Part shown: positions 30,956-32,198 of the stretch, one piece after another
Position numbering within the stretch: position 1 is the stretch's first letter
Layout: the number at the start of each line of letters is the position of its first letter
Assembly (NCBI GenBank): GCA_021296315.1
Contig: JAGWAO010000010.1
Coordinates: forward strand, 56,973 to 89,170
Source: Acidimicrobiia bacterium
Lineage (GTDB): Bacteria > Actinomycetota > Acidimicrobiia > Acidimicrobiales > Aldehydirespiratoraceae
Length of the DNA: 32,198 nt
Reading direction: 5' to 3'
The notes under the pieces: model-generated
Seen by the model: the letters and a program-made list of their open reading frames with translations, nothing else
What the model was told of the DNA's origin: nothing
Databases searched by the model: none
Translations under genes and position numbers: made by a program

Positions 30956-31411
30956 TCAGGCGCTGATCGCCTTCCGTAGTGTTTCCAGCGCCTTGTCGGC
31001 GTGGATGCGCATATTCAGTTCGGACCGCACCGTCGTCAGCACCGTGCCGCTCCGGTCGATCACAAGGGTCCTGCGCTTGTTCGGCAGGAGGCCTTGGCGG
31101 ACCACGCCGAAGCTGCGAGCGATGTGGCGGCCCGGGTCCGACAGCAGCGGGAAGCCCAAGGCGTTTGCGTCGGCGAATTCGAGTTGCCGGTCAACCTGAT
31201 CGGCGCTGATTCCCACGACGCTGGCTCCGAGTTCGGCGAACTCTGCCGAAAGGTCGCGGAAATGGCAGCTCTGGCGCGTTCAACCGGCGGTCATCGCCTT
31301 GGGGTAGAAGTACATGACGACGGGGCCGACATCGAGCAGGTCGCGCAGGACGACTGTGTTGCCGTGCTGGTCAGGCGCCTCGAAGTCGGGGGCCCTGTCA
31401 CCGATCTTCAC
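30956..31411 (-). CDS. BCP/AhpC-TSA-type peroxiredoxin, candidate selenoprotein with TGA (Sec) at the peroxidatic position (codon 31282..31280)
   Basis: Manual minus-strand translation from GTG 31411: VKIGDRAPDFEAPDQHGNTVVLRDLLDVGPVVMYFYPKAMTAG[TGA]TRQSCHFRDLSAEFAELGASVVGISADQVDRQLEFADANALGFPLLSDPGRHIARSFGVVRQGLLPNKRRTLVIDRSGTVLTTVRSELNMRIHADKALETLRKAISA*. Same frame on both sides of TGA; AGGAGG SD at 31423..31418. The track only reports the C-terminal 86 aa. Confidence 0.85.
31232..31250 (-). promoter_or_regulatory. candidate bacterial SECIS-like hairpin downstream of the in-frame TGA
   Basis: Minus strand TTCGGC-AGAGTTC-GCCGAA, perfect 6-bp stem; apical loop begins 36 nt after TGA with G as second loop base. 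Distance is at the far end of the range I recall for bacterial SECIS elements. Confidence 0.35.
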
Positions 31412-31478
31412 AAGTGTCCTCCTCTGTTCACAAGATGCGCCGCCTCCCGCTGTCTCAGGGTTCAGTATCGCGCGCTCG

Positions 31479-32198
31479 TCAGATCCCGATCGAGGCGGCG
31501 ACCCGGTCGGCGTGGTAGTCGGCCCCTCCCCAGGAGCGGGCCAGCGCCCACGAGCGCTTCAGGTATAGGTGCAGGTCGTACTCGGTGGTGTAGCCGATGG
31601 CTCCGTGGCACTGGAGGGCGGCCCGGCCGGTGACGGCGGCGGCATTGGTGGCCAGCCACTTGGCCTGAGACACCGAGCGGCTGGTGTCGGTGAGACCGTG
31701 GGCGAGCCCGTACGCGGCGTACAGCACCGCCGGACCGGCGAACTCGATCTGGATCCGGGCGTTGGCCAGGTGATGCTTCACGGCCTGGAAGCTCCCGATC
31801 GGCTTGCCGAACTGGTGGCGCTGGGCCGCGTAGCCCACGGTCAGTTCCAGCATGGCCCGGCTCAGCCCCAGCAGTTCGGCTGCGCTGCCGAGCACGCCCC
31901 GCTCGAAGGCCGCCGCCACGGCTACCGCGTCGTCGGTCACCAGGTCCCCGCGACCGCGGGGGCGCACCCGTGCGCAGTGCCTGGAGGCGTCCACGGTCTC
32001 CACCGGCTCGATCTCCAACTCATCGGGCTCGTAGAGCCGCAGCCCGTCGTCGGAGCGGAGCAGGAAGGCCTCGGCGAACGCAGCCGAGGCAACGACAGGG
32101 CGGGCCCTGCCAGCCTCGGCGGTCACCGCCGGATCCACCGCACCGAGGTCTTCGGTCACCGCCGGATCCACCGCACCGAGGTCTTCGGTCACCGCCGG
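31479..32198 (-). CDS. acyl-CoA dehydrogenase, C-terminal part (truncated by window edge)
   Basis: RGVLGSAAELLGLSRAMLELTVGYAAQRHQFGKPIGSFQAVKHHLANARIQIE...CHGAIGYTTEYDLHLYLKRSWAL; ORF open to the window end. Confidence 0.9.
   Translation of the reverse strand, partial: PAVTEDLGAVDPAVTEDLGAVDPAVTAEAGRARPVVASAAFAEAFLLRSDDGLRLYEPDELEIEPVETVDASRHCARVRPRGRGDLVTDDAVAVAAAFERGVLGSAAELLGLSRAMLELTVGYAAQRHQFGKPIGSFQAVKHHLANARIQIEFAGPAVLYAAYGLAHGLTDTSRSVSQAKWLATNAAAVTGRAALQCHGAIGYTTEYDLHLYLKRSWALARSWGGADYHADRVAASIGI
32121..32198. repeat. 33-bp tandem repeat, two full copies plus 12 nt, running off the window
   Basis: ggtcaccgccggatccaccgcaccgaggtcttc at 32121-32153 and identical at 32154-32186, third copy begins 32187; encodes VTEDLGAVDPA in frame with the acyl-CoA dehydrogenase ORF. 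Confidence 0.9.

Follow-up and report, generated by a model that had tools for sequence, protein, structure and literature searches.

An in-frame TGA at the catalytic site of a BCP-type peroxiredoxin gene from an Acidimicrobiia bacterium very probably encodes selenocysteine

When an otherwise complete peroxiredoxin frame carries a TGA codon exactly where the catalytic cysteine would be expected, is the gene broken, or is the codon read as selenocysteine (Sec)? We addressed this question for a locus near the end of a 32,198-nucleotide stretch of DNA (hereafter the window) from an Acidimicrobiia genome assembly of 2.66 Mb in 83 contigs that is 86% complete. The nearest named relatives of the source genome are Acidimicrobiia/Acidimicrobiaceae metagenome-assembled genomes (MAGs), some of which, going by their bin names, may come from marine sponge metagenomes. 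Elsewhere, the window contains scattered copies of a partly palindromic repeat around GGCCGTGGCCCGAGCGGCCC, located at positions 18, 1366 and 8181 on the plus strand and 20464 on the minus strand, which is exact over 20 bases at these four places, shows longer similarity over about 50 bases and also occurs at loci L017 and L023; from its sequence, it appears to be REP-like.

The peroxiredoxin frame and its TGA codon

A sequence-only reading of the window had proposed a selenoprotein gene on the minus strand that starts from a GTG at 31411, six nucleotides downstream of an AGGAGG, and we obtained the same frame when the sequence was re-read. The gene occupies positions 30956..31411 (minus strand), is preceded by the Shine-Dalgarno sequence at 31418..31423 and encodes 151 residues, ending with a TGA at 30958-30956. 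The frame reads VKIGDRAPDF...VVMYFYPKAMTAG-U-TRQSCHFRDL...ISA*, and the TGA at codon 44 (31280..31282, minus strand) is its only internal stop, as had been claimed; the 86-aa ORF described downstream of it is also present (31216-30956). The Pfam AhpC-TSA model PF00578 matches residues 3-124 and hence spans the TGA (E = 8e-36, 123 bits with a cut-off of 26), and aligned homologues carry either TGA or the Cys codons TGC/TGT at this place. The domain match and the Cys homologues confirm that codon 44 specifies the peroxidatic residue of a BCP-type peroxiredoxin, here presumed to be Sec. This residue closes the PxxxTxxU active-site motif, PKAMTAGU (codons 37-44, 31280..31303, minus strand), and is followed at UxxxxC spacing by Cys49 (31265..31267, minus strand), a putative resolving residue encoded by the sole Cys codon of the gene. 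Both Pro37 and Cys49 are retained in the window protein.

The start codon position is common to seven close relatives, being GTG in six and ATG in L064, and all seven retain a purine-rich GGAGR at equal spacing. Upstream lies a gene that by eye resembles acyl-CoA dehydrogenase genes (31479..32192, minus strand), which is also found in this position in six of the eight relatives examined (L060-L064, L074). It terminates with TGA, indicating that TGA also serves as an ordinary stop here. A composition-filtered list of the other in-frame TGAs in the window, judged by eye, yielded gene ends and antisense frames only. The placement of the codon-44 TGA is more than chance: it hits the one catalytic codon and is retained in seven further, separately assembled genomes.

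Selenocysteine machinery of the source genome

Since the proposal depends on Sec machinery, which the sequence-only reading had suggested looking for, we searched the source genome and found selA, selB and selD. On contig C25, selA (C25:46895-48184) is directly followed by selB (C25:48336-50051). The selD gene has an in-frame TGA at its catalytic position, HGAG-U-GCK (L018:3502-3504, corresponding to contig C30:24001-24003, minus strand), so that SelD is itself a selenoprotein; apart from this Sec codon, all three genes are uninterrupted. The genome also encodes a second Sec-type peroxiredoxin, WWYPKASTAGU-TKEGRGFRD (L121:1184-1654, corresponding to contig C33:8683-9153), which is about 47% identical to the window protein over residues 3-106. 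Like the window gene, this paralogue has an in-frame TGA at the catalytic position and presumably uses the same decoding machinery, but Arg replaces the resolving Cys and, unlike in the window gene, the UGA is immediately followed by a clear SECIS-like hairpin with a 7-bp stem and a 7-nt loop.

For the window peroxiredoxin gene itself, the recommended check 3' of the TGA could not show a SECIS element. Neither RNAalifold nor a search for hairpins nor z-scores from synonymous shuffling gave a signal of a conserved or unusually stable hairpin 3' of the UGA, and an Rfam scan near the gene returned chance-level matches only. Mean shuffle z-scores were above zero for TGA forms and below zero for Cys forms, probably because the pooled codons of the two groups differ in G+C, and the codons directly following the TGA showed no significant drop in synonymous diversity (p 0.27). 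A GAGTTC-GCC-GAACTC hairpin located 37-51 nt after the TGA (31229..31243, minus strand) is not supported as a SECIS element because Cys homologues share similar palindromes, which arise from the codons for E-F-A-E-L.

The search for tRNA-Sec gave a divided answer: two copies with a UCA anticodon are present in the source assembly, on contigs C27 (C27:10824-10904, L110) and C68 (C68:5438-5518, L093), but both are truncated in the T loop. They are identical over 81 nt, match the tRNA-Sec of relatives up to GGCGGGTTCG and then depart at the same T-loop base, after GGTTCG, into unrelated DNA. An intact tRNA-Sec 3' end was not found in the source assembly, an 86%-complete MAG, and a scan of viral contigs for this end gave no match. 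In close relatives bearing the TGA form, an intact tRNA-Sec(UCA) was called by both ARAGORN and Rfam. The C68 copy is flanked by a sigma-factor gene, which shares a contig with tRNA-Sec in two relatives; there the two features are about 6 kb (G207) and about 36 kb (G201) apart, compared with about 0.2 kb on C68, a variation suggestive of a variable island site at tRNA-Sec. Both copies adjoin a yqeC-like gene. The two YqeC-like proteins, which are 82% alike, have different relatives as their nearest matches, and the bin may accordingly be a mixed one. The truncated copies may reflect either a real rearrangement at the island site or assembly or binning trouble. A yqeC-like gene stands beside tRNA-Sec in near relatives as well as in the source genome (L110, L093, L094-L100), and this neighbour, going by gene order, hints at an added selenium-cofactor (molybdenum hydroxylase) trait.

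These copies raise the question of whether the gene was inherited as a selenoprotein gene but resides in a strain that has lost Sec decoding through a broken tRNA-Sec, with the enzyme now being lost. Truncation of both copies at the same T-loop base, together with the missing 3' end, is what such a loss would leave behind. However, the MAG is only 86% complete, selA, selB and selD are uninterrupted but for the SelD Sec codon, two TGA-containing peroxiredoxin genes and the TGA-containing selD are all intact, and the resemblance of the two yqeC/tRNA loci to different relatives hints at a mixed bin. We therefore regard loss of decoding as very improbable, although it is the best-surviving of the alternatives to a functional selenoprotein.

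Codon 44 among homologues

At the codon-44 column of the homologue alignment, 33 sequences have TGA and 46 have a Cys codon (TGC/TGT), whereas L092, a very distant match, was unalignable here. All seven intact relatives (L060-L066), with protein identities of 78-89%, share the TGA of codon 44 and are free of further internal stops. Alignment of homologues had been put forward as a means to tell Sec from decay, and we found that TGA and Cys alternate at this column only, with none of the scattered stops elsewhere that would mark a decaying gene. Flags for an internal 'TAG' or 'TAA' in G145, G196 and G077 proved to be terminal stops reached by the match, with no UAG or UAA at the Sec site; G075 was outside this check.

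Selection acts on both sides of the codon. Mean pairwise dN/dS among eight close sequences (Nei-Gojobori) is 0.16 before the TGA and 0.25 after it, and the latter value indicates that the downstream part is still protein under purifying selection. Presence of the TGA form also tracks the machinery: in a set of 73 further genomes from the order, all of which have a strong homologue, selA is present in 18/18 TGA-form carriers, each TGA having been checked base by base, compared with 21/55 Cys-form carriers (Fisher p 1.2e-6, which is indicative only because the genomes are related).

In two sequences, L074 and L075, a common one-base deletion (GAGTTCGCC to GAGTCGCC) lies downstream of the TGA at about codon 58. 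They derive from bins SB0675_bin_16 and SB0675_bin_25, which share a study prefix, and the deletion is either a frameshifted allele or a sequencing error common to both.

On these grounds, we consider it very unlikely that codon 44 is a Cys codon hit by a recent nonsense mutation or sequencing error, or part of a pseudogene, so that the full-length protein is never made. TGA is a stop in the standard table and L074/L075 do carry a frameshifted allele, but the same TGA is common to 28 main-clade sequences from many genera, no other stops occur, dN/dS is about 0.25 downstream and the TGA form co-occurs exclusively with selA. Its recurrence in independent genomes likewise argues against a read artefact, and the preference of the sequence-only reading for Sec insertion over pseudogenisation is supported by the presence of selA, selB and selD, by the TGA/Cys alternation and by the selection downstream of the TGA. 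Genome-wide reassignment of UGA or ordinary near-cognate suppression would also allow translation across the in-frame TGA, as appears to happen, but the use of TGA as a normal stop in this genome, where it terminates both the peroxiredoxin gene and the gene upstream of it, speaks decisively against reassignment. With the TGA at an established Sec position both in this gene and in SelD, and with Sec machinery present, the probability of either explanation is negligible.

Known relatives, proposed catalysis and history of the site

Collectively, our data make it very probable that the gene product is a Sec-containing peroxiredoxin of the BCP type (COG1225) in which UGA-44 is read as Sec, Sec insertion and peroxidase activity being inferred. 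SelB carrying Sec-tRNA-Sec, itself made by SelA and SelD, would decode UGA-44. The Sec44 selenolate would then attack peroxide and become a selenenic acid, Cys49 would form an intrasubunit Sec-Cys bond in the putative resolving step, and thioredoxin or a similar reductant would open this bond.

That Sec peroxiredoxins exist in other bacteria had been noted in the sequence-only reading and is borne out by the literature. Both PMC9312934 and PMC13188914 list the Bcp-type Sec peroxiredoxin (TxxU), an established family of selenoproteins, and both cite the work on an experimental member, PrxU of Eubacterium acidaminophilum (Soehling 2001). The family has been counted at 91 sequences from 78 organisms (PMC5029168) and at 253 in ocean samples (PMC2398784), and was reported from Symbiobacterium and others (PMC1794560). 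We found no paper in the open-licence literature linking it to Acidimicrobiia. As the family has long been known, the window gene represents a further member, in Acidimicrobiia. It shares with the family (COG1225 (Bcp)/PF00578) the fold family, the peroxidatic U, the PxxxTxxU motif, the existence of Cys homologues and the use of UGA, and differs in its Acidimicrobiia host and in having Cys49 as the only possible resolving residue. In sequence, it is well apart from PrxU, scoring 35 bits with the NCBIfam PrxU equivalog NF040737, below the cut-off of 270. The best NCBIfam model is thioredoxin-dependent thiol peroxidase (BCP) NF006960 (104 bits, cut-off 140), and judged by these scores the protein is close to BCP but outside that equivalog. 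The best solved relative by sequence, the Cys-type BCP-like peroxiredoxin PDB 5epf (residues 2-147, E 7e-42), resembles it in active-site layout and in having a Cys at +5, but carries Cys where the window protein has Sec.

On a maximum-likelihood tree of 70 homologues, two TGA/Cys changes suffice, a number that by itself gives no direction to the switch. One of the two changes falls within genus g29, between Cys forms (L044, L053, L122) and TGA forms (L038, L042), all accompanied by selA; because the Cys-form genomes still have selA, a recent switch from Sec to Cys is its most likely reading. The proline of the PxxxT motif has given way to another residue in 11 of the 33 TGA forms and in none of the 46 Cys forms. 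Cys at +5 is absent from 12 TGA forms, of which 7 belong to the main clade and 5 to the paralogue group, and is kept by every main-clade Cys form, while four distant gammaproteobacterial Cys forms have Gln. Each loss takes three changes on the main-clade tree, so few that their independence is limited. Tentatively, and with slightly less than even confidence, we suggest that a peroxidatic Sec has been a long-lived state across this order and has relaxed the PxxxT proline and the main-clade resolving Cys that are fixed in Cys forms. If this is true, some lineages would have 1-Sec enzymes with a different recycling route.

While Sec use at this catalytic site was already known elsewhere, the lineage itself is little charted, and since standard gene callers truncate such genes, many genome annotations probably lack or mislabel a widespread Acidimicrobiia selenoprotein. 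Because the order contains one enzyme in both its Sec and its Cys form, the benefit of selenocysteine to a peroxidase becomes directly testable, and the g29 Cys and TGA orthologues, all accompanied by selA, offer a good natural pair for studying the Sec/Cys switch.
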